Origin: Ascidia mentula
Lineage: Eukaryota > Chordata > Ascidiacea > Phlebobranchia > Ascidiidae
Direction: 5' to 3'
Assembly (NCBI GenBank): GCA_947561715.1
Contig: OX387200.1
Coordinates: forward strand, 10,108,501 to 10,172,500
DNA: 64,000 nt
Shown: positions 5,101 through 60,714 of the stretch, one piece after another
Position numbering within the stretch: the stretch's first letter is position 1
Layout of the letters: each line of letters begins with the position of its first letter
The notes under the pieces: generated by a model
Database searches by the model: none
The model's input: the letters and a program-made list of their open reading frames with translations, nothing else
Told to the model about the DNA's origin: nothing
Position numbers and translations under genes: made by a program

Positions 5101-8100
5101 TAGAAAAATTTCCTCACCTCTCTGAGAGTCATTTTTCTGCCTTCCTTTTTTAAAACCATCCTCTCAGGTTCTTTCTTAGCTTTTTCTTGTATAAATCCAA
5201 GCAAATGCTTTTGACTCATGCAAGCAGCAGCGTGTATATGGGTGTCTACCTACGAAAAACGTTACATATATGTGTGAGCTCTTGGCCATTTTTTTGGTTT
5301 TTATTTATAAAGCGCTTTGTTCGATTAACCTTTCTGACGTTGTAAAAATCTCTCCGACAAGAACGTCCAGGATTTTTCATCATTTCCAGCTCAGTTTCTT
5401 CGTTAAGAAGGCGATGCATTCCAAATTTGTTTTTCAAATATGATAATCGCTGATAGCAGAACGACTTGCTAAAAACAACATATAGTACAGCGTAAAGCAG
5501 TGTGGTGGCAAACTTTTCGACTCACAGGCAAGGAATTAAAATTTACAAGCGGACTATGACCCATGCAAGTATAAAGTGTACAAATAACGTTTACAACAAT
5601 GTAAACTATGACTTTTCCATTCTTTGTACACTTCTGTACTAACCCATTGACAATAATTGGAGTTTAAAAGTTGTAACTGAAAAGAAAAAAAAAACGTGCA
5701 CCAAAATTATACGACGCTTATTTGTACCAAGTTCTGGTGGGCCAGGTTAAAAGGCCTAACGAGCCAGATTTGTCTGGTGTAAAGACAGTACTTAAAATCT
5801 AAAAATTTACTCCATTAAAGTACTTCTATGTGATATACAAACACAATGATATTCTTTGTACCTACAGGGGCCCGTCAGCAACGAGTGCATACAGAAGGTT
5901 TCGATTGGTGATAAAGGTATCGCGGTTGGCAAGGGGCAAGTAAATCTCTTTTCCGTTTTCGCCGTCGATTACGGTCACTACTCCCTTGCAACATGTAACC
6001 TCCCAATGTTTCTCGTCGTTAGGAATACTCGGTTTCTCCATTGGATACAAATAGTCTACAAAAAAAACCTATTATTAAATATAACACTTCTAGTATATTA
6101 TTCATTATACATTAAGTATATTATTATACTACTAAATGTACGAATAACGTTATATGGTGAGTATTATTTTTAAAACTATTTATTACCCGGATATGATGCA
6201 GGCCTAAATGTAGAGTGAGTCGCTTTCGAAGTAAACTGGGCCACAACGTTGGGGAAATTCTGTCTCGCAAGTCTCATGTAGTACTGTCTAGTTTTTAAGG
6301 CGTGGATTAGGCTAACGCAAGAGTCGCGTAGTTCCTGTAAATTACAATGCATATATTTACCACTTCCATCAATCATGTCACAAGCAAATCCAACAGAACG
6401 CATTTATACCGGAAAAGCAAAGTCTTCGCTTTCTCCAGAGACAAAAACACGTTGAAATGGAATGGTTTCAGTACTTCTTTCCAATTCGTTTGAAGGTTTT
6501 GTGTGCATCGTATGTTGAGGTTCTGAAGACTGCGTTTCCGCCTCTTCAATTTCCACTACGCTCATTCGCTCGGGTTTATGCAAGTTGTTTACAGATTCCC
6601 TAAATTCAAATTTATTTCACCCAATGTGATTAGTAAATCAAATCTGGATCAAAAAAACCAAAGGCCCCTGGCAGGCTGTCGATCGCACACCGTATCAATA
6701 ATAATGTATTAAAATCCAAACACAGCGATCTTCAGACAGCTCAGATCGATTTATTTAGAGAAAAATATATTTCGCCTAAAACGGCATCATCAGTTTCTCC
6801 ATTTACCAAAACTGCCAAAAAGGAAAAACAGAAAGGAAAAAGTCAAGAATGTAACGCAAAAAGGTTACGCAAGCTAAAAATAAATAAAAATTAATAAAAA
6901 CTATAAAAATATTCAGGTTTCAAGCATTAACTAAAAAATAATAAAAGTATGAATTAACTGCATGTGGTCAGACCTGTCTGTACTACTTTGCTTTCAAAAA
7001 CCACTGGCGCTGACACCGAGTGAGCACACAAACATACAGAAGCAACTGAATGTAAAAACAGAACAAAAGTGGAAGGGGAATGGACGTCACGAACTGCAGA
7101 CAGGTAGGCCTGTGGGCGAACAGGTGTGACCGATAAGACTCGGTGAATGATAAGACGATAAAAACAGGTTAACAACACAGGAAAAGTCATCAACCCGTTA
7201 CAGCGAAAACAAGCGCAAACAAAAACATAGTCCTACGGGCGGGGAATAGCAAAACAAACTATTTGCATGATGGTGTTACCATGGTTTGCACATTGATTTG
7301 TGCCCGTATTCTGTGCAACCATAAGTCCTCATATAGATCCAAACTCCCTGCAGGTGGTTTTTGCACGAACGTCACGTCATAGCAACTTGGCAATATGGGT
7401 CTTTGCTGGAATGTTTCGCTATGCTTCTTCAGGTAGTGGTTACCCAGCGCCGTAGCATCGCTATCTAGCGAGCACTCGAACTGGTACCAAGTAGACCTGT
7501 GAGCATTCCAGCGAGTGGAGAACTTGTTTTTCGTCTGCCCAACATACTGGGCTCCGCAGGTTTTGCACGAGGCCACATATATCCCATAGTCGCGACATGT
7601 TAGTCGCTGACGCAACATTATTCTGCCTTTGGGGGTACACAGGAAGGTAGTTGTGGGCACCATGGGCTCGTGGTTACCATGGTGCCCGCACAGCGCACAG
7701 TGGCCGCAAGGGGCCGATTGGCCAGTGTCCCGAGGCTCGGTGCGATGGGCAAGCTGCTTGTAGTGGCATAGTTTGTTAAACATCGTTGGTCCTCTCCGAT
7801 AAACGATGGAAGCATTTGCCTGGAGGCTCAATTCATTGGGCGAAAGACGCAGTATATGAGGGAATGCTGTTGCCCAGATAAGTTTGTGCAGGCTTGGAAG
7901 CGAGTCTACCGACTTGTTGTGGAAGAATCTAGACTTCCAAGCGCTGGCTGTTGCTAACACATCGCATGTCATCCTCACCGGGAAATTGGATTTCACAGCT
8001 TTATCTTTCAGCCACAATAGGGCCTTTTTGTAGTCGCTTTCATTCTCGTTTAAGCGCCGCATCCGTATGGCTTCGGAAAACACAATTGATTTAAACACAT

Positions 8101-11100
8101 GGATTGGGTGGTGGGAACGCCTATTAAGAAAACAACGGTCAAGTGCTGTGGGCTTAGTGTGATTGGTGGTTTTGAAGCCCGCCAGTGACACGGGGTCGAT
8201 AATGTGGCACACATCAAGAAATTCAACTCCAGTGCATGGCTTTGCCGTTGTGGCTTGGCGGAAAGTTAGTTCCAAGCCTGCGTTACGAAAGCATTCCACC
8301 AACTTCTGTTGTATGACATTGGTTGTTTTAACCCCAAGCGACACCCATATAATGTCATCAATGAACCTCTTAAATATGTACGCCTTGTTTATTGCTGTGG
8401 CAGCTTTGCAAACAATGAAGTGAACAGCAATGTTAGCCACCGATACTGAGTTATTGTCACCTGTGACAATGCCTTCTTTTTGGCAATAAAAAGAATCTGC
8501 ATTCCTCAATATGGCGTTGTCAATGCAAAACATTGTCAATTCGATGATGGTGTTTCTTGCCTGCGCGGTGAATGTTGAGTGACCATTCAAAGCCGCCTTC
8601 AAAGCCTGGCGTATAATGGATCTGGGAAGGTTGGGATATAATGATTTTACATCCCCTGCCACAATGCATAGTTCCTGGCGCCGCATTTTCTTGGAGAGGT
8701 GTTGCGCATTTTCCATTTTCCACTTGTGGAGTTCTTCTAAATAATCTTTACTGTCCCGGGAATATTCATTTACGTTTGCCTTGCAGTAGAGTACACTGAT
8801 CGGCTGCAAAATGCTTTCCAGGAAAATCGTAGTTCGGGACGTCGTGGTGTTTCCAGATGCTTGCACCAGTCTCACTGGCATCTCTCCAATACTGCAATGC
8901 AGCAGCTCTTCAGGTGCGAGCTTGTGGGTTTTGAACAACGGATACGCATATCCGGGTTCGTTGCACGCAAAGAATTTTGCTGTAGTCTGGTCCTACATCT
9001 GGAAACACCACGACGTCCCGAACTACGATTTTCCTGGAAAGCATTTTGCAGCCGATCAGTGTACTGCAGATTCTTTTTATTGCCAAAAAGAAGGCATTGT
9101 CACAGGTGACAATAACTCAGTATCGGTGGCTAACATTGCTGTTCACTTCATTGTTTGCAAAGCTGCCACAGCAATAAACAAGGCGTACATATTTAAGAGG
9201 TTCATTGATGACATTATATGGGTGTCGCTTGGGGTTAAAACAACCAATGTCATACAACAGAAGTTGGTGGAATGCTTTCGTAACGCAGGCTTGGAACTAA
9301 CTTTCCGCCAAGCCACAACGGCAAAGCCATGCACTGGAGTTGAATTTCTTGATGTGTGCCACATTATCGACCCCATGTCACTGGCGGGCTTCAAAACCAC
9401 CAATCACACTAAGCCCACAGCACTTGACCGTTGTTTTCTTAATGGGCGTTCCCACCACCCAATCCATGTGTTTAAATCAATTGTGTTTTCCGAAGCCATA
9501 CGGATGCGGCGCTTAAACGAGAATGAAAGCGACTACAAAAAGGCCCTATTGTGGCTGAAAGATAAAGCTGTGAAATCCAATTTCCCGGTGAGGATGACAT
9601 GCGATGTGTTAGCAACAGCCAGCGCTTGGAAGTCTAGATTCTTCCACAACAAGTCGGTAGACTCGCTTCCAAGCCTGCACAAACTTATCTGGGCAACAGC
9701 ATTCCCTCATATACTGCGTCTTTCGCCCAATGAATTGAGCCTCCAGGCAAATGCTTCCATCGTTTATCGGAGAGGACCAACGATGTTTAACAAACTATGC
9801 CACTACAAGCAGCTTGCCCATCGCACCGAGCCTCGGGACACTGGCCAATCGGCCCCTTGCGGCCACTGTGCGCTGTGCGGGCACCATGGTAACCACGAGC
9901 CCATGGTGCCCACAACTACCTTCCTGTGTACCCCCAAAGGCAGAATAATGTTGCGTCAGCGACTAACATGTCGCGACTATGGGATATATGTGGCCTCGTG
10001 CAAAACCTGCGGAGCCCAGTATGTTGGGCAGACGAAAAACAAGTTCTCCACTCGCTGGAATGCTCACAGGTCTACTTGGTACCAGTTCGAGTGCTCGCTA
10101 GATAGCGATGCTACGGCGCTGGGTAACCACTACCTGAAGAAGCATAGCGAAACATTCCAGCAAAGACCCATATTGCCAAGTTGCTATGACGTGACGTTCG
10201 TGCAAAAACCACCTGCAGGGAGTTTGGATCTATATGAGGACTTATGGTTGCACAGAATACGGGCACAAATCAATGTGCAAACCATGGTAACACTATCATG
10301 CAAATAGTTTGTTTTGCTATTCCCCGCCCGTAGGACTATGTTTTTGTTTGCGCTTGTTTTCGCTGTAACGGGTTGATGACTTTTCCTGTGTTGTTAACCT
10401 GTTTTTATCGTCTTGTCATTCACCGAGTCTTATCGGTCACACCTGTTCGCCCACAGGCCTACCTGTCTGCAGTTCGTGACGTCCATTCCCCTTCCACTTT
10501 TGTTCTGTTTTTACATTCAGTTGCTTCTGTATGTTTGTGTGCTCACTCGGTGTCAGCGCCAGTGGTTTTTGAAAGCAAAGTAGTACAGACAGGTCTGACC
10601 ACATGCAGTTAATTCATACTTTAATTATTTTTTAGTTAATGCTTGAAACCTGAATATTTTTATAGTTTTTATTAATTTTTATTTATTTTTAGCTTGCGTA
10701 ACCTTTTTGCGTTAGATTCTTGACTTTTTCCTTTCTGTTTTTCCTTTTTGGCAGTTTTGGTAAATGGAGAAACTGATGATGCCGTTTTAGGCGAAATATA
10801 TTTTTCTCTAAATAAATCGATCTGAGCTGTCTGAAGATCGCTGTGTTTGGATTTTAATACATTATTATTTCACCCAATTTAAGTTATAGCCTACATATTT
10901 TGTTACAAAAATAAACGATTTTATCGTGTTTTTAATTGCAAAAAAAAACTCAGGACCGAATTTGTTTAAATTTATTAAAACTTACGTGGGGAAAGTCTGC
11001 GATAGGTCTGGATCGGCAACAATGGGAATTATACTTGGTCTGGGCCAACTTGTCACCAGGTTCGTACCGGATCCAACACTTATTGAAGCTCTGTGCTTTT

Positions 11101-35627: not shown

Positions 35628-37093
35628 CCGGATATGATGCAGGCCTAAATGTAGAGTGAGTCGCTTTCGAAGTAAACTGGGCCACAACGTTGGGGAAATT
35701 CTGTCTCGCAAGTCTCATGTAGTACTGTCTAGTTTTTAAGTCGTGGATTAGGCTAACGCAAGAGTCGCGTAGTTCCAGTAAATTTCAATGGATATCTTTA
35801 TACATGCAACCACTTCCATCAATCATTTCAGCAACTTCTTGTCACAAAGAAATCCAACAGAACGCATTTATACCGGAAAAGCAAAGTCTTCGCTTTCTCC
35901 AGAGACAAAAACACGTTGAAATGGAATGGTTTCAGTACTTCTTTCCAATTCGTTTGAAGGTTTTGTGTGCATCGTATGTTGAGGTTCTGAAGACTGCGTT
36001 TCCGCCTCTTCAATTTCCACTACGCTCATTCGCTCGGGTTTATGCAAGTTGTTTACAGATTCCCGAAAATCAAATTTATTTCACCCAATTATTTCACATA
36101 TATTGTTACAAAAATAAACGATTTTATCGTGTTTTTAATTGCAAAAAAAGTCAGGACCGAATTTGTTTAAATTTATTAAAACTTACGTGGGGAAAGTCTG
36201 CGATAGGTCTGGATCGGCAACAATGGGAATTATACTTGGTCTGGGCCAACTTGTCACCAGGTTCGGATCCAACACTTATTGAAGCTCTGTGCTTTTGCAT
36301 ACGACGCCTCGCCTGTTCAGATTCCAACTCTATAGGCTTCTCATTTCCCATTTCAACGTGTCGCTTGGTTTCCATCTTAAGGTCCTCCTGGAAGGCACTT
36401 GTTAAAGTAAACAATGACTTTTATTTTGAATTAAAATTTAAATACAATAAAATTCACAACTAACTGCAACACCAATAAAGCAATCTTCAGTTTAGGGGAA
36501 ATTTGATTTCGCTTCCCTTATAATCTCTTATCTTGTATATTTGCAGGTGCATTGTAGTCTGAAGTTACAGTCGACCATGCACGTGTATAAACCTAGTACA
36601 GCATTTTAAATTCTTGTTTATTCTCCTGCCCCAAACACTCAGTCAAAAAGAAATCGCTCGTCTTTAAATATTTGTTAGCTTAACACAGTTGATTTCAGCT
36701 GGGAGTCTGCAAAACATTTTTAATGCTGGGTCCGCTAATAAATAATAATCCACAAAGTTCAGTTGCTGTTCAACGTTTTTAAGCAAAAGTATTGTTTGCA
36801 AAACTGCCCCATTGGTATAAAACAACAATAAAAAAATGTTATTTAACACCTCTATACCAACCAGCGATCTTTTTTATTCATTTTTATTTTTACCATAAAG
36901 AGACGTTCAGCGATTTCTGAAAGCCGTTTCGTGTACTGTTCCTCATCGGTAAGAATCACACTGCTTCCTGCTGTCTCTTCAACCTGTGCAGCAAGAATGC
37001 GCACAATATCATTTGCCAGGGCAGCCGAAGCTGTTTTTCCAATATCATCACAGCTTGATGTGGTGGGTGAAGCAAGAAATAGAGTCTTATTTT
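35628..37093 (-). pseudogene. AMPD 5' exon relics, unit 2
   Basis: Copies of the first four recognised AMPD exons: 36894-37093, 36187-36387, 35874-36063, 35628-35775. They cannot make AMPD: the second copy is 5 bases shorter than the working exon and shifts frame, the acceptors of the third and fourth are changed (AG to CG, and ACAG to ACTG), and no catalytic exons follow. They were carried along when the receptor locus was duplicated. Confidence 0.85.
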
Positions 37094-37431
37094 CTGAAAA
37101 AAATATCAACTGTTGTGTTATAGTGCCCGTAAAGTAAATGTCAATTTGTTAATTCGTGCTTATTGTAGCATCATAGTGCCTTTTTTACTTTTTGCACCAG
37201 TGCTTTACATTGTAACAATAAAGACTGATTAGTCGTCTAGTTCAGGGATCACTAAGGGCTTCGCGAACCTGCGGGGGTCGCACGGCGAATTTCATGGATT
37301 GCGAAGATTACGGTAACGTGCTATTTCACACGCCACGTATTCGTATGCATTCTTGTATGTTCCCTAAGTTCTAGAAGTTTTCAGTAGACGCCAAAAAGTA
37401 TTAGAGTCTATAGCTCTGGCCTAGTTAACAC

Positions 37432-37580
37432 AGCTATCCACTAATTAACACAGCTACCCACTAATTAACACAGCTATCCACTAGTTACCACAACTATCTA
37501 CTATTTAACACAGCTATTCACCGGTTAACACAGCTATCCACCAGTTAACACAACTATCCACAAGTTAACATAACTTTCCA
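37432..37580. repeat. 20-bp minisatellite, unit 2
   Basis: Same array as at 12256 with point differences and the same copy order, so it was duplicated as a block. Confidence 0.85.
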
Positions 37581-53482: not shown

Positions 53483-54274
53483 TTATTACCCGGATATGAT
53501 GCAGGCCTAAATGTAGAGTGAGTCGCTTTCGAAGTAAACTGGGCCACAACGTTGGGGAAATTCTGTCTCGCAAGTCTCATGTAGTACTGTCTAGTTTTTA
53601 AGTCGTGGATTAGGCTAACGCAAGAGTCGCGTAGTTCCAGTAAATTTCAATGGATATCTTTATACATGCAACCACTTCCATCAATCATTTCAGCAACTTC
53701 TTGTCACAAAGAAATCCAACAGAACGCATTTATACCGGAAAAGCAAAGTCTTCGCTTTCTCCAGAGACAAAAACACGTTGAAATGGAATGGTTTCAGTAC
53801 TTCTTTCCAATTCAATTCAATTCAATTCATTTTATTTCTCGCAAACGTCATCGAATACGCACAACAACTTGCAGCAATCATTTCGACTGGTGACGTGACG
53901 AAGGACCGGTGGAACCATTCTTGGTCATATGACCGGCCCTATGGAAGGTACGGGCGTTGCAAAAAGACAAACACATATCGGCAACTGGAAGAAAAACTTT
54001 TCATTTTTTTTTCCTTTTATATCAACTAGTTTTATATTTTTTTGTTTTTTTTGAAAAAAAAACAAAACAACAATAACAAAAGATGTGTTACGTATCTATC
54101 ATTAATAAGCTTGGCAGAACACATTAGACGGTGTGAAGATATATCTAGGCACGTCTGTGGAGTGTGGACTTATGTTGAGGCACGTGATGGCGGCACGTGC
54201 TGGCGGCAGGTTTGCGATAATTATTTGATTAATTGGTGTCGTGTCTGATTGAATTATAACATTCCTGGGGGTGT

Positions 54275-57214
54275 TTACCTCGCCCACGTGTTGTTGTTTA
54301 GATTTTTGTCAAGCGATTCGATGAGGAATGCGTGCAGTGCTTTGTGGAATCCGACCAAACTGAACTTTTTTATGTTTTCAGGAATGTTGTTCCAAATTTC
54401 TACGCCTTTGTAATTTAAGTTTTTTTTGCCCAATTCCGTTGATGCACGTGGAAGAAAATATTTGAGGTTGGTATGACTTCTGGTTGTGTGGGCATGAACT
54501 CTAGCAACTGGTGTGAAATAATTTTTGAAAACTGGTGGCAAACGTTGATTTTTGTACTTGTGTACGAACCTTCCAATTTGTAAATTATGCATTAAGTGAA
54601 TCGGCAGAATTTTGGTGTTTAAATGTAGTTGCCAGGTGTGGGTGCGAAAAGGACTATTGGTAACTAAGCGCAGTGCCCGATTCTGCATAACCACTAGAGG
54701 ATGTAGCAGTGACGGACTAGCAAAACCCCATGTTAGAAGACCATATCTTAGGTGAGAGTGTACTAGTGCATGATACACAATTCGAAGTGTGTCTTGGCCT
54801 AAGTGGTGCTTGAGCTTGTACATGATAGCGATGGTTTTGGCTATTTTTTTGCAGAGCATGCTGATGTGCGGACCCCATAAAAGTTGGCTATCGAACTCAA
54901 TGCCAAGATATTTAGCTGTTTCAACTTGTTCAAGTGTGACGCCATTGATTTTCAGGTGAAATGACTTATTGTTTAATTTTTTACATCTGGAGAAGAGCAT
55001 GAACTTGGTTTTCTGGCAATTAACTGTTAGTTTGTTGGACTGCATCCATGTATTGACCTTGTCAATTTCAATATTGGTATATTTCTCCAAATCCTCTATG
55101 TTTTTATGTGACATGATTAGACATGTGTCATCTGCAAATAATGTTGTGTGGAATGTGGAGGCGCAAGGCAAGTCATTGATGTATATAAGGAAGAGGAGGG
55201 GTCCTAAAGGCGATCCCTGAGGTACGCCGCAAACCACATTGGAAACATTGGAGTGTGAATTGGCAATTTTTGTATATTGCTGTCGGCCTGTTAGGTAGCT
55301 CTTAAGGAAGGTTATAATTTTACCCCGAAAACCATGAAATTCTAGTTTTTGTAGTATGATGTCATGATTGACTGTGTCGAACGCTTTTTGGAGGTCAAGG
55401 AATATTGCGCATGTTTTCTGTTGGTGGTCTAACAAATTGGCTATGTGATCATAGATGTGTGCTATGGCTAAGTCGGTTGAATGTCCAGGTCTAAATCCAT
55501 TTTGAAATTTGGTGAGTAGGTCAAATTTTAGTAAATAGTCCATCATCCTTTTATGTATAATTGTTTCAAATATTTTGGCAAAGATTGGTATTAATGATAT
55601 TGGTCTGTAATTACTTAAGTTTTCAGAGTCCCCTCCCTTAAATAGTGGTATCACTTTAGATATTTTTAAGCATTTAGGATATGTTGCTGTTTGGATGCAG
55701 CGGTTTAGCAATTGGCAAAGGATTGGTGAAATAACTGGTGCTGCTAATTTAACTAGTTTAATGGGAATGTCATGAGGGCCTGTTGATTTATTTATGTCTA
55801 ATTGTGCAATGGTGTTAAATATTTCGTTTATTTCCACAGTGTGGAAAAAGAAGGATGCTGATGGACTGTTTGTGAGGTAGTCTATTGGTTTTGTGAGAGT
55901 TGGAGGAACAAGTAGTGCCATATTTTTCCCAATGTTGGTGAAAAAATTGTTAAATTCACTTGCAATGTGCGTTGGATCTTTAACTGTGCCATTGGGTGTG
56001 GTAATTTGTGATATGGGTGTTTTCTTTGTGGCGTTATTTGTGGTTATTTTGTTAATAAGTTTCCAGGTTTGCTTTGGGTTTGCCTTGTTAACATTAAATA
56101 AGTTTTTGTAGTGATTTTGCTTGGCTGCTCTTATAACTGATTTTAGTTTATTGGAATATAATTTGAAGTTGGGTGTGAGATTTCCTTTTTGAATGAGTTT
56201 CCTATAAAGTTTGTTTTTATGTTTTATAGATTTTAGGATACCCTTGGTGATCCAAGGCTTTGCCTTGCGCCTTCTGTGTTGTAGTGTGTATGGAGCATGC
56301 TCTTCTACAGTGTTTTGAAAAATGTGGATGAAGGTTGCAAATTGATCCTGAACATCTGATTCATTCCAAATAATGCCGGCTCTGTTTTCAATCATAAGTA
56401 GGAAACTGTCTGTGTCAAATTTGAAATAATTTCTAGTAAGTGTAGGGTATTCCATGATTTGGGGTTCGGACTTGTGAATAATGGCAAAAATAGGCAAGTG
56501 GTCTGATATGTTGAATGTAATGAGACCAGGTGTAATAGCATTTGAAAAATTGTTTGTGTAGATATGGTCTATAGTGGATTGTCTCTGTGATGGGGCTGTG
56601 TGGGATGCTTTGTCTATTATAATTTTGGTGTTCAGGCTCTCTATCATCAGTTTGTATTCTTGTACATGAGGTGTTTTTCTTGAAATGTCGATGTTGAAGT
56701 CACCAAGAATGTAAAAGGTTTTGTTTTTTTTGTTTAAAGTATGGATAGTGTGTTCTAAATGTGAAGCGAAAATTGTTATGTTGTGATCTGGGTGTCGGTA
56801 GATTATTCCAATTACCATTGATTTCTGTTTGTTTTTTTGTTTCAGGTCAACTTCAATCCACAAATTTTCGCAACGAGGTATATGAATTTTATACTGGTCG
56901 CTTCTACGGTAAACCAGTGGTCTTTTAACATATATGCCCACACCACCAGCATGTGTTGGGGAGTTTTCTCCAAGGAAGTCATATCCATCTAAAGATATGT
57001 TGGTTGCTGTGTTTTTTTTAAGTTTTGTTTCGGAGATTCCAATTATATGAGGTAGTACACTGCACGCATTAGCAAAGGCTTCTAGAATAGGTAGATTATG
57101 AGGCAAACTTCTTACATTAAAATGAGTCATAACGAAATTTTGTTGGTGTGGTTGTTTGGTTGCAGCATCAAATTCTTGCATACTATAATATTTGCTACAC
57201 ATGTTTGTGTTCAT
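54275..57214 (-). CDS. LINE ORF2 protein (AP endonuclease and reverse transcriptase)
   Basis: About 979 residues from the first ATG (57214). N-terminal AP-type endonuclease: FNVRSL, GISETKL, YRHPDH, LGDFNID, STIDHIYT, ISDHLPIF. Reverse transcriptase in the middle third: NYRPISLIPIF, FRPGHST, FLDLQKAFDTVNH, GVPQGSPLGPLLF, catalytic FADDT. C-terminal region with YKGVEIWNNIPENIK, as in CR1/L2-like clades. Everything needed for target-primed reverse transcription seems present and uninterrupted, so the copy may be able to move. Clade assignment is by eye. Confidence 0.9.
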   Translation of the reverse strand: MNTNMCSKYYSMQEFDAATKQPHQQNFVMTHFNVRSLPHNLPILEAFANACSVLPHIIGISETKLKKNTATNISLDGYDFLGENSPTHAGGVGIYVKRPLVYRRSDQYKIHIPRCENLWIEVDLKQKNKQKSMVIGIIYRHPDHNITIFASHLEHTIHTLNKKNKTFYILGDFNIDISRKTPHVQEYKLMIESLNTKIIIDKASHTAPSQRQSTIDHIYTNNFSNAITPGLITFNISDHLPIFAIIHKSEPQIMEYPTLTRNYFKFDTDSFLLMIENRAGIIWNESDVQDQFATFIHIFQNTVEEHAPYTLQHRRRKAKPWITKGILKSIKHKNKLYRKLIQKGNLTPNFKLYSNKLKSVIRAAKQNHYKNLFNVNKANPKQTWKLINKITTNNATKKTPISQITTPNGTVKDPTHIASEFNNFFTNIGKNMALLVPPTLTKPIDYLTNSPSASFFFHTVEINEIFNTIAQLDINKSTGPHDIPIKLVKLAAPVISPILCQLLNRCIQTATYPKCLKISKVIPLFKGGDSENLSNYRPISLIPIFAKIFETIIHKRMMDYLLKFDLLTKFQNGFRPGHSTDLAIAHIYDHIANLLDHQQKTCAIFLDLQKAFDTVNHDIILQKLEFHGFRGKIITFLKSYLTGRQQYTKIANSHSNVSNVVCGVPQGSPLGPLLFLIYINDLPCASTFHTTLFADDTCLIMSHKNIEDLEKYTNIEIDKVNTWMQSNKLTVNCQKTKFMLFSRCKKLNNKSFHLKINGVTLEQVETAKYLGIEFDSQLLWGPHISMLCKKIAKTIAIMYKLKHHLGQDTLRIVYHALVHSHLRYGLLTWGFASPSLLHPLVVMQNRALRLVTNSPFRTHTWQLHLNTKILPIHLMHNLQIGRFVHKYKNQRLPPVFKNYFTPVARVHAHTTRSHTNLKYFLPRASTELGKKNLNYKGVEIWNNIPENIKKFSLVGFHKALHAFLIESLDKNLNNNTWAR

Positions 57215-57362
57215 GGAGGTGTTTGTTAATATGGTGTTGTGCAAAGCTGTTGTAAAACATTAAACAAAATAAAAATACACTGACAGACAAAATATCACAA
57301 TGATTGTTTTTGCAGGTGAACATCATCATTTTTACACTAATTGACTGCATCATTACAGTACC

Positions 57363-58142
57363 TTATTGGATGCTTGGTATTTTGTACTTCCGTAGATCAT
57401 CTTCATTTTTGATCCACAACGCCGGAGTGCCTTCATCTTTTTTGAGTAGTGTTGTACCATTTTTAGTCCAAATAAACTTGAATCCGTGGTTTCTTTTATA
57501 TGCAAGGCAAGTATTGAATATTTTTCTATTTACTTTTGTTAAGCTTTCATTGATAAAGATTTTGTTGACCATATTTTCCATGTTTATTTTTCGTAGCTTT
57601 GCCCGATTCTGAAACAGACTATCTCGAGTTTTTCTTGACAAAAACTTTGCTATTATAGTTGGCGGTTGCTGAGTATTGTGCTTATGCATTTGCAGTCTGT
57701 GGGATATGCTGATGTCACTTTTGTTGATAATCACTCCCACTTTTTTTGCAATGGAGACAACAATCTCATCTGTGCATTCCTCCTTTGTGTGAGGAATGCC
57801 TTTAAACTCCAGACAATCTCGCCTCCCATACTGTTCCAATGCATTGACTTCATCAGAACAGGCAGCCATTCCAATTCTTAATCGTTTGACATTTTCCTTC
57901 AGTTCCAAGTTTTCTTTTTTGACTGTTTTTAGTTCTTCTTCAGTTTGATTCAGTTTTTTTTCCAGAGTATCAAATTTTTGTGACATGAAATTTTGACTTT
58001 CTTTGATTGCTTGTAAATCTGCCAATGCTGAGTTAAGTTTGTCAGTTACGTGATTTTTGTTCTGCTGCACTTGCTCAATTAAAATGTCCACTTTTGCAGA
58101 GAGTGTTGATCCAGGTAGTTTTTTTGGAGTATGTGGTGACAT
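57363..58142 (-). CDS. LINE ORF1 protein (coiled coil plus RRM-like)
   Basis: 259 residues from ATG at 58142. Probably the RNA-binding chaperone of the element's ribonucleoprotein particle. Residues about 40-100 form a Lys/Glu-rich heptad stretch (KKLNQTEEELKTVKKEN) typical of a trimerising coiled coil. Then YGRRDCLEFKGIP, SISHRL and IIAKFLSRKTRD resemble the RRM-like and C-terminal domains of L1-type ORF1 proteins. No zinc knuckle seen. Confidence 0.8.
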   Translation of the reverse strand: MSPHTPKKLPGSTLSAKVDILIEQVQQNKNHVTDKLNSALADLQAIKESQNFMSQKFDTLEKKLNQTEEELKTVKKENLELKENVKRLRIGMAACSDEVNALEQYGRRDCLEFKGIPHTKEECTDEIVVSIAKKVGVIINKSDISISHRLQMHKHNTQQPPTIIAKFLSRKTRDSLFQNRAKLRKINMENMVNKIFINESLTKVNRKIFNTCLAYKRNHGFKFIWTKNGTTLLKKDEGTPALWIKNEDDLRKYKIPSIQ

Positions 58143-58200
58143 AACACAGTTTCAGCTAGGCTTGATTAAGTGTAATTCAAATTTAACACCACTCTAATAC

Positions 58201-58216
58201 CTTATTCAAATAGAAT
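58201..58216 (-). other. Spliced-leader sequence at LINE 5' end
   Basis: Minus strand reads ATTCTATTTGAATAAG, all 16 bases of the Ciona spliced leader as I remember it. It sits exactly at the LINE's 5' boundary. The first three bases (ATT) also belong to the target duplication, so 13 bases are independent evidence. Confidence 0.8.
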
Positions 58217-59678
58217 TCGTTTGAAGGTTTTGTGTGCATCGTATGTTGAGGTTCTGAAGACTGCGTTTCCGCCTCTTCAATTTCCACTACGCTCATTCGC
58301 TCGGGTTTATGCAAGTTGTTTACAGATTCCCTAAAATCAAATTTATTTCACCCAATTATTTCACATATATTGTTACAAAAATAAACGATTTTATCGTGTT
58401 TTTAATTGCAAAAAAAGTCAGGACCGAATTTGTTTAAATTTATTAAAACTTACGTGGGGAAAGTCTGCGATAGGTCTGGATCGGCAACAATGGGAATTAT
58501 ACTTGGTCTGGGCCAACTTGTCACCAGGTTCGGATCCAACACTTATTGAAGCTCTGTGCTTTTGCATACGACGCCTCGCCTGTTCAGATTCCAACTCTAT
58601 AGGCTTCTCATTTCCCATTTCAACGTGTCGCTTGGTTTCCATCTTAAGGTCCTCCTGGAAGGCACTTGTTAAAGTAAACAATGACTTTTATTTTGAATTA
58701 AAATTTAAATACAATAAAATTCACAACTAACTGCAACACCAATAAAGCAATCTTCAGTTTAGGGGAAATTTGATTTCGCTTCCCTTATAATCTCTTATCT
58801 TGTATATTTGCAGGTGCATTGTAGTCTGAAGTTACAGTCGACCATGCACGTGTATAAACCTAGTACAGCATTTTTTTTCTCCTGCCCCAAACACTCAGTC
58901 AAAAAGAAATCGCTCGTCTTTAAATATTTGTTAGCTTAACACAGTTGATTTCAGCTGGGAGTCTGCAAAACATTTTTAATGCTGGGTCCGCTAATAAATA
59001 ATAATCCACAAAGTTCAGTTGCTGTTCAACGTTTTTAAGCAAAAGTATTGTTTGCAAAACTGCCCCATTGGTATAAAACAACAATAAAAAAATGTTATTT
59101 AACACCTCTATACCAACCAGCGATCTTTTTTATTCATTTTTATTTTTACCATAAAGAGACGTTCAGCGATTTCTGAAAGCCGTTTCGTGTACTGTTCCTC
59201 ATCGGTAAGAATCACACTGCTTCCTGCTGTCTCTTCAACCTGTGCAGCAAGAATGCGCACAATATCATTTGCCAGGGCAGCCGAAGCTGTTTTTCCAATA
59301 TCATCACAGCTTGATGTGGTGGGTGAAGCAAGAAATAGAGTCTTATTTTCTGAAAAAAATATCAACTGTTGTGTTATAGTGCCCGTAAAGTAAATGTCAA
59401 TTTGTTAATTCGTGCTTATTGTAGCATCATAGTGCCTTTTTTACTTTTTGCACCAGTGCTTTACATTGTAACAATAAAGACTGATTAGTCGTCTAGTTCA
59501 GGGATCACTAAGGGCTTCGCGAACCTGCGGGGGTCGCACGGCGAATTTCATGGATTGCGAAGATTACGGTAACGTGCTATTTCACACGCCACGTATTCGT
59601 ATGCATTCTTGTATGTTCCCTAAGTTCTAGAAGTTTTCAGTAGACGCCAAAAAGTATTAGAGTCTATAGCTCTGGCCT

Positions 59679-59828
59679 AGTTAACACAGCTATCCACTAA
59701 TTAACACAGCTACCCACTAATTAACACAGCTATCCACTAGTTACCACAACTATCTACTATTTAACACAGCTATTCACCGGTTAACACAGCTATCCACCAG
59801 TTAACACAACTATCCACAAGTTAACATA
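59679..59828. repeat. 20-bp minisatellite, unit 3
   Basis: Copy of the unit 2 array; I see no differences from it by eye. Confidence 0.85.
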
Positions 59829-60714
59829 ACTTTCCAGCTAAAAGGCTAAACTATCCACTAAAGGCTAAAAAAGTGAACACCACATAGCACAGATACCACT
59901 GTTAGTCTTACAATAAGACCACAAGTCGAGATGAGATAACCTACCGGTTTGAACTTTTGTTCGAGATAAGCAGTTACCCATGTTTTTAATCAAATATTTT
60001 GATAAAAAAATTCAGAATCTTTTCTGTAGCCCAAAACCAATTGTTTGCAAAAAATCGTTTCTTTCGTCATAGTTACCTAAAGTCAATTGAGGTAGAAATA
60101 GGTATTGTGCCAATCAGGCAAGATATGTTCGCACGGTTCCATAATTCCCTACACGACTCAACTCAACAAAAATATCAGCACGCTCACTTGGATTCTGAAA
60201 GTTAGTTATTACTCGCTCGATCGGTAAAGACTATAGTTTCTCGCTCCCTCGGTTATCAGTTCGCCCAGTGGTCACTATGATAGCCGCCTGGCATCGCAAC
60301 ACGTGTTTCTACTTGCTTATACGGCGTCAGATTAGTAGTAGATTTTAAAGAACACTCCAAGCAAACTTGGAACACTTTGATTGCCAGATCTGAACAATTG
60401 CTATGGGTCCGAGAGTAAAGACAATTTAGAATCAGTACAAATTGCGCTCCATTGACATAGTAGACGCCGACAGTCATTCTTGGATAGGCTATATGGGGGC
60501 GGAAATGAACCCGAAAAGTTAAGCGAATTTGAGCACTTTATTTTTGTGAAACGGAGCTTAATCTGAACCTGTTGTTGTTTATCTGACAACCCGAACCGGA
60601 ATTGAAAGATCAAACAAACCTACTATGGTATGTCGTCACATTCCTTGTCAACATTTGCAGCATCGTTTGTCAAACAAAACGTTTGAAATCCATAGTCGCT
60701 TGCACAATATAATT

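Follow-up and report, generated by a model that had tools for sequence, protein, structure and literature searches.

The window, by which we mean the whole stretch of 64,000 nucleotides analysed, contains on its minus strand a LINE whose first bases are those of a spliced leader. The parts of this insertion, together with two sites in the window that lack it, are as follows.

58201..58216, minus strand: 16-base spliced leader ATTCTATTTGAATAAG, the first bases of the LINE; exact match with 0 mismatches, identical to the exon of the tandem SL RNA genes
58143..58200, minus strand: 58-base 5' UTR, beginning GTATTAG (from the sequence)
57363..58142, minus strand: ORF1, 259 aa, with a Baculo_FP_2nd domain (Pfam PF25298, E 4.1e-12)
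54275..57244, minus strand: ORF2, 989 aa, endonuclease and reverse transcriptase (Pfam PF03372, E 1.8e-10; PF00078, E 1.4e-36)
53814..54274, minus strand: 3' UTR with a terminal (GAATT)n tail (from the sequence)
53814..58216, minus strand: the whole LINE insertion, 4403 bases, delimited by comparison with the two empty sites
35946..35955, no strand: empty site 1 at about 35950, in a paralogous segment (flank 99.4% identical over 2.3 kb)
6482..6491, no strand: empty site 2 at about 6486, in a paralogous segment (99.3% identical over the first 140 bases)

The presence of PF03372 and PF00078 within one open frame identifies the longer frame as the endonuclease-reverse transcriptase ORF2 of a non-LTR retrotransposon. 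An earlier sequence-only reading had proposed that the element starts with a 16-base leader within 58195..58218 and continues with a 58-base 5' UTR and ORF1. This arrangement is borne out; the leader is exact and confined to 58201-58216, so that the range proposed contains it along with a few extra bases on each side. The boundary is set by the two duplicated segments of the window that still hold the site uninterrupted and free of the LINE: read on the minus strand, the empty site is CCTTCAAACGAATTGGAAAG, and the filled site passes from CCTTCAAACGA into the leader and reads GAATTGAATT, GAATTGGAAAG at the end of the element. By comparison with these uninterrupted sites, the insertion starts with the leader, to within the shared ATT. 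Because ATT/GAATT is common to target, leader and tail, the ends of the insertion are uncertain by 2-5 bases; the target-site duplication, likewise of 2-5 bases, is ambiguous.

Two other features of the window lie outside the insertion. A short tandem repeat (units like GTTAACACAGCTATCCACTA) adjoins it at 59677-59836 and is also found in the paralogous segment near 37421-37580. Near-identical reverse-transcriptase-like frames with a GIY-YIG-like end stand head to head at 7259-8938 (minus strand) and 8811-10307 (plus strand); judged by eye, they resemble Penelope-like elements.

The leader and the SL RNA genes of the genome

The leader ATTCTATTTGAATAAG has 2157 exact matches in the 195.8-Mb genome, in which 0.4-0.6 would be expected by chance and the reversed pattern, searched as a control, has 0. 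Extended by the first 12 bases of the SL RNA intron (GTAAGCATCACG), it has 1661 exact matches genome-wide, leaving about 496 exact leaders outside exact SL RNA gene matches (2157 less 1661), some of which may be variant SL RNA genes. In the eight units read, the leader heads tandem units of about 720 bases and is followed by GTAAGCATCACGCCC...ACTTTTTTGA, with a GT donor directly after the leader and an intron that starts GTAAGC. We take these tandem units to be the SL RNA genes and the leader, which the sequence-only reading had named as that of Ciona, to be the genome's own: the same 16 bases head the units and the LINE. The bases after the leader differ between the two, being GTATTAG in the LINE and GTAAGC in the SL RNA intron, a comparison that had been proposed earlier and is of consequence for the origin of the junction discussed below.

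In Ciona intestinalis, the 16-base leader is described as part of a 264-bp repeat unit with the Sm motif AGCUUUGG (PMC7986045). The leader here consists of the same 16 bases, whereas the unit is longer and AGCUUUGG is absent from the stretch read. The predicted fold of the SL RNA was no better than that of shuffles, and no Rfam family matched L041, which carries tandem SL RNA genes, at E up to 0.5. Within the arrays at C1:15239654-15330939, the run of units of about 720 bp is broken in places; the start-to-start distance is 7573 bases at two of the breaks and 7061 at a third, a spacing that suggests a higher-order repeat.

The leader in copies and relatives of the LINE

A 204-base piece downstream of the leader finds ten matches in the genome, five of them full length at 100%. 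These correspond to five full-length copies of the window LINE at unrelated sites, all of which start at leader position 1, with the leader exact in four and retained at 14/16 bases in one. The first 24 bases of the 5' UTR are identical in 5/5 copies of this family, and the 24 bases upstream are only 27% identical (10 pairs). The sequence-only reading had named shared sequence upstream of the leader in other full-length copies as the observation that would count against it; the upstream bases of the five copies argue otherwise. It had also left conditional whether progeny would keep the leader, and it is found at the start of all five copies and, as described below, in four related groups. The five copies differ by 3-14 bases in 2190 and are therefore recent; both frames are open in all of them, ORF2 being shortened in one. 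The (GAATT)n tail occurs in 3/5 of the other copies compared, with a variant tail in C71_17 and a match that stops before the tail in C72. A target-site duplication (GTAT) is present in C73 and none is clear in C71_18. Copies truncated at the 5' end exist as well: C73_15 begins at element base 893 and L103 inside ORF1.

A search with the ORF1 protein gave at least 100 matches in the genome. Defining as near-complete those in which ORF1 is covered from residue 12 or before to residue 252 or beyond, there are 21 among the matches listed, and these fall into five groups, A (5 copies, the window family), B (5), C (2), D (1) and E (8), with ORF1 identities to the window LINE of 67-68% for B, 58% for C, 49% for D and 42-45% for E. 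The leader is present at the 5' end in 20/20 near-complete copies read from groups A-E, a set chosen after the fact for its nearly complete ORF1: it is exact in 13, differs at the first base only in 6 and keeps 14/16 bases in 1. A lone change of the first base would be expected of a reverse transcript that ends one base before the cap. In all 20 copies the leader is joined at the exact end of the SL exon. The 21st copy, C71:11746789 of group B, has the leader followed by GTACTAG, as seen by pattern match only. Excluded from the count of 20 are the older broken copies L036-L040, L094, L099 and L101; L100, L102 and L104, in which no 5' end was reached, enter no count.

Between groups, the leader is 95.9% identical; the 24 bases on its upstream side reach 26.5% and the 24 on its downstream side 29.7% (145 pairs, with L071 and L087 entered by their outer leader). 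When 45-base UTR alignments were compared with shuffles, one of ten group comparisons passed the 5% level (B with E, 0.034), so the groups may share an ancestral 5' end.

Among the eight older broken copies with the 5' region read, three keep 13-14 of the 16 leader bases (L094 14/16, L101 14/16 and L040 13/16 twice). Three others, L038, L039 and L099, have only 9-10/16 and probably derive from one duplicated insertion. No leader was seen at the 5' region of L036, where the likeness sets in 14 bases past the position of the leader, or of L037, in which the start of ORF1 is kept. Truncated copies provide a control, albeit a thin one with one clear case and two probable ones. L103 passes from satellite into ORF1 with no leader at the break; L105 and L106 have no leader in about 120 bases, their 5' breaks are not pinned and truncation is probable, and L105 shows a borderline ORF1 likeness upstream of the break (9/200 shuffles as good). 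Comparing near-complete with truncated copies, the Fisher p value for the leader is 6e-4 with all three truncated copies and 0.05 with L103 alone. L107 was rejected as a truncated control, as ORF1-like sequence continues upstream (0/200 shuffles) and the N-terminal part lies 3.6 kb away.

How the leader may come to head each copy

A few copies carry more than one leader or a leader at a shifted position. The 4/4 group B copies with the 5' end read sit in a satellite with a 138-base unit, in which CCATTTTGCAGTATATGACTTTTCGATAAAAAATATTTTTTTTCAG directly precedes TACAAGCTTTATTATACAG, with variants, some without CAG; in most units TTTCAG or TTTGCAG stands before TACAAGCTTT. In L071, a member of this group, the order is CCATTTTGCAGTA, leader, TACAAGCTTT, leader, GTACTAG. 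Both leaders are exact and the ten bases that separate them are those after the T8-CAG of the satellite. We suggest that the parent of L071 had inserted after TACAAGCTTT of a satellite unit and that its RNA, transcribed from upstream, would have been trans-spliced at the satellite acceptor and reinserted. Alternatively, a leader-only insertion of 16 bases with a 2-base TA duplication could have given the same order. In L086, also of group B, the leader is joined to CCTAGGC; in three sisters it is followed by GTACTAG and then CCTAGGC, i.e. the join of L086 lies after the next AG, and L086 has 0 other differences from one sister in the 54 bases compared. A 7-base deletion between the two AGs could also account for this. 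In L087 of group C, an exact leader is followed by TGATATTGAATAAG, a decayed leader and GTATCC, and in the sister copy L088 only one leader precedes GTATCC; in L087, the inner leader could instead be a mutated local duplication.

Genome-wide, exact tandem leaders at most 30 bases apart give 10 matches at 8 places (control 0), L071 being the only one of these known as a LINE of groups A-E. Two of the eight are triples of period 17, which could be made by slippage. The outer and inner leaders compare as exact and decayed in L087, 14/16 and 12/16 in L094, both exact in L071 and both 13/16 in L040. Another of the tandem leaders, at C69:11508823, lies in an LTR-like repeat of which a relative, L029, reads TTATTAAAG joined to CTAGAGTTGCC at the corresponding place. 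L029 was rejected as the single parent of this tandem leader, its sequence being a repeat with 16 places, and the AG join alone was used. In 3/3 re-additions with the parental sequence known from relatives (L071, L086 and C69:11508823) the join follows AG, which makes up 4.9% of dinucleotides. In total, the layered leaders and the shifted acceptor suggest that in a few copies the leader was added more than once.

The group B elements L058, L066, L071, L086 and L103 all lie within the 138-bp satellite, L058 in the opposite orientation, and the 5' junctions of four of the five fall within about 16 bases of the satellite unit. Group B is perhaps a satellite-targeting LINE.

Combining these data, we are close to certain that the LINE RNA that was inserted bore the leader, and we consider it likely that this LINE group uses host SL trans-splicing to make its 5' end. 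That the RNA was trans-spliced before reverse transcription had been offered as the simplest reading of the window copy. It is the best-supported one, since all five full-length copies and the related groups begin with the leader; what had been described as a single leader-carrying insertion does carry the leader, but the scale is larger, as a whole group of LINEs regularly starts with it. In this model, (i) transcription of a genomic copy would begin upstream, within flanking DNA, (ii) the spliceosome would remove the upstream outron and attach the SL exon after an AG (as a rule the one that closes the old leader, at times one a short way into the upstream flank or the next downstream), and (iii) reverse transcription of the leader-headed RNA to its 5' end would yield a new copy consisting of leader, UTR and ORF1. 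Since AG forms the end of the leader, the acceptor for the next round would be present in every new copy.

Copies with a single leader fit renewal and inheritance alike. On the evidence of the genomic copies, we think it probable that renewal of the leader is the rule, as opposed to inheritance with occasional re-addition, and trans-splicing of the LINE RNA thus probably takes place anew in each cycle. The reading that fares best among the others supposes a single capture of the leader, by trans-splicing, in an ancestor common to groups A-E. From then on it would have been passed down as DNA under selection for a role as transcription start or translation element, and later trans-splicing would be no more than occasional. 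This reading accords with the one leader position common to all groups and with the single leader on the same acceptor in most copies, which plain inheritance predicts as well, and a leader has been proposed to serve as promoter for dinoflagellate retrogenes (PMC6050394). However, the leader is nearly invariant between groups while the bases on both sides of it are near background, the layered leaders and the shifted acceptor point to re-addition, and in L087 it is the inner leader that has decayed and the outer one that is exact. We therefore regard a single capture as unlikely.

Far less probable is a jump of the reverse transcriptase from the LINE RNA to the SL RNA at the end of cDNA synthesis, which the sequence-only reading had listed as an alternative. 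The many SL RNA genes suggest that SL RNA is abundant, and this would favour such template switching. Against it, SL intron sequence follows the leader in 0/20 copies read (GTATTAG rather than GTAAGC in the window), the SL exon ends at the join every time, and the leader is lacking from the clearly truncated L103 and the two probable truncated copies. That the 5' end of the element resembles the leader by chance, short and AT-rich as the leader is, can be dismissed as negligible in view of 2157 genomic matches where 0.4-0.6 are expected, the empty reversed control and the leader at 20/20 near-complete 5' ends.

It is a long-standing question how LINEs preserve an intact 5' end through repeated cycles, and internal promoters and ribozymes are known answers to it. 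Host trans-splicing would, if our model is correct, be a further one: an element of this group could insert anywhere, even within satellite, and never lose its 5' end, the leader that it carries doubling as the acceptor for its own renewal. Judging from the copies in this genome, the balance tips slightly towards LINEs without a 5' terminus of their own, perhaps without a promoter, that live on transcription from the flank and have the 5' end rebuilt by the host trans-spliceosome. We infer that trans-splicing is of benefit to the element. The spread of such retroelements would then be linked to whether a lineage has SL trans-splicing, and the approximately 496 exact leaders outside SL RNA genes would be candidate marks of reverse-transcribed, trans-spliced RNA.

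Known systems and other leader-carrying repeats

In R2-type LINEs, a ribozyme frees the element from a host transcript. The LINEs described here would resemble them in that the element rides on a longer host transcript and its 5' end is made by RNA processing; the difference is that the host spliceosome would do the processing and would add a foreign exon.

Leader sequence adjoining retroelements has been reported in flatworms. In parasitic flatworms, 597 leader loci lying close to mobile elements, most of them LTR and LINE, were set aside, and the authors suggest integration of trans-spliced retrotransposon transcripts (PMC12582326); in S. mansoni, six SL exons are merged with TEs (PMC5832876). 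The flatworm leaders are partial and their loci were filtered out, whereas here the leader stands at every near-complete 5' end read in a defined LINE group; the parts of these accounts covered describe no element 5' end, empty site or re-addition. In C. intestinalis, SL pseudogenes outside the functional repeat units are 'rife' (PMC7986045, citing Yeats 2010), and in the part of that account covered these leader copies are called pseudogenes and not linked to retroelements. Dinoflagellate retrogenes carry relict, sometimes multiple leaders (PMC6050394, citing Slamovits and Keeling 2008). The likeness lies in leader-marked retrocopies with several leaders from repeated rounds; the dinoflagellate copies are, however, host genes, whereas the copies marked here themselves encode reverse transcriptase.

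At the level of RNA, about 30% of the TE Iso-Seq reads of Hydra carry the leader (PMC12220107), and TE RNA therefore enters trans-splicing in an animal. The Hydra evidence is RNA, with no leader in genomic insertions mentioned in the part of the account covered. In the case of Cer1, SL1 is found on the spliced mRNA and not on the 8-kb RNA (PMC3315495, in the part covered). In searches of open-licence full texts, we found no paper on a group of LINEs that regularly starts with the leader. For flatworms, leader-marked retroelements have been suggested, and Hydra is known to have TE transcripts headed by the leader; LINEs with the leader as a regular 5' terminus appear to be new.

Other sequences in the genome carry the leader too. 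At L007, L013, L015, L016 and L025, and similarly at L011 and L017, the leader is followed by a CTGATGA-like motif, a short hairpin and GAAA, resembling a hammerhead core; a loose pattern of this kind occurs after the leader at 5/30 loci on C1. Hammerhead ribozymes, suggested by eye from CTGATGA...GAAA, were rejected, as 20 loci gave no Rfam hammerhead match at E up to 0.5. The same scan gave five weak matches to other families, all below gathering scores, and two short post-leader stretches had no Rfam match at E up to 1. The leader also occupies a fixed inner position in at least three other repeats (L008 and L009; L020, L021, L047, L048 and others; and the 16-place repeat). As LTRs do, these often occur in pairs on the same strand, about 4.5-7 kb from one another, and the frames near them look copia-like and BEL/Pao-like by eye. 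In these LTR-like repeats, the leader may mark the start of R.
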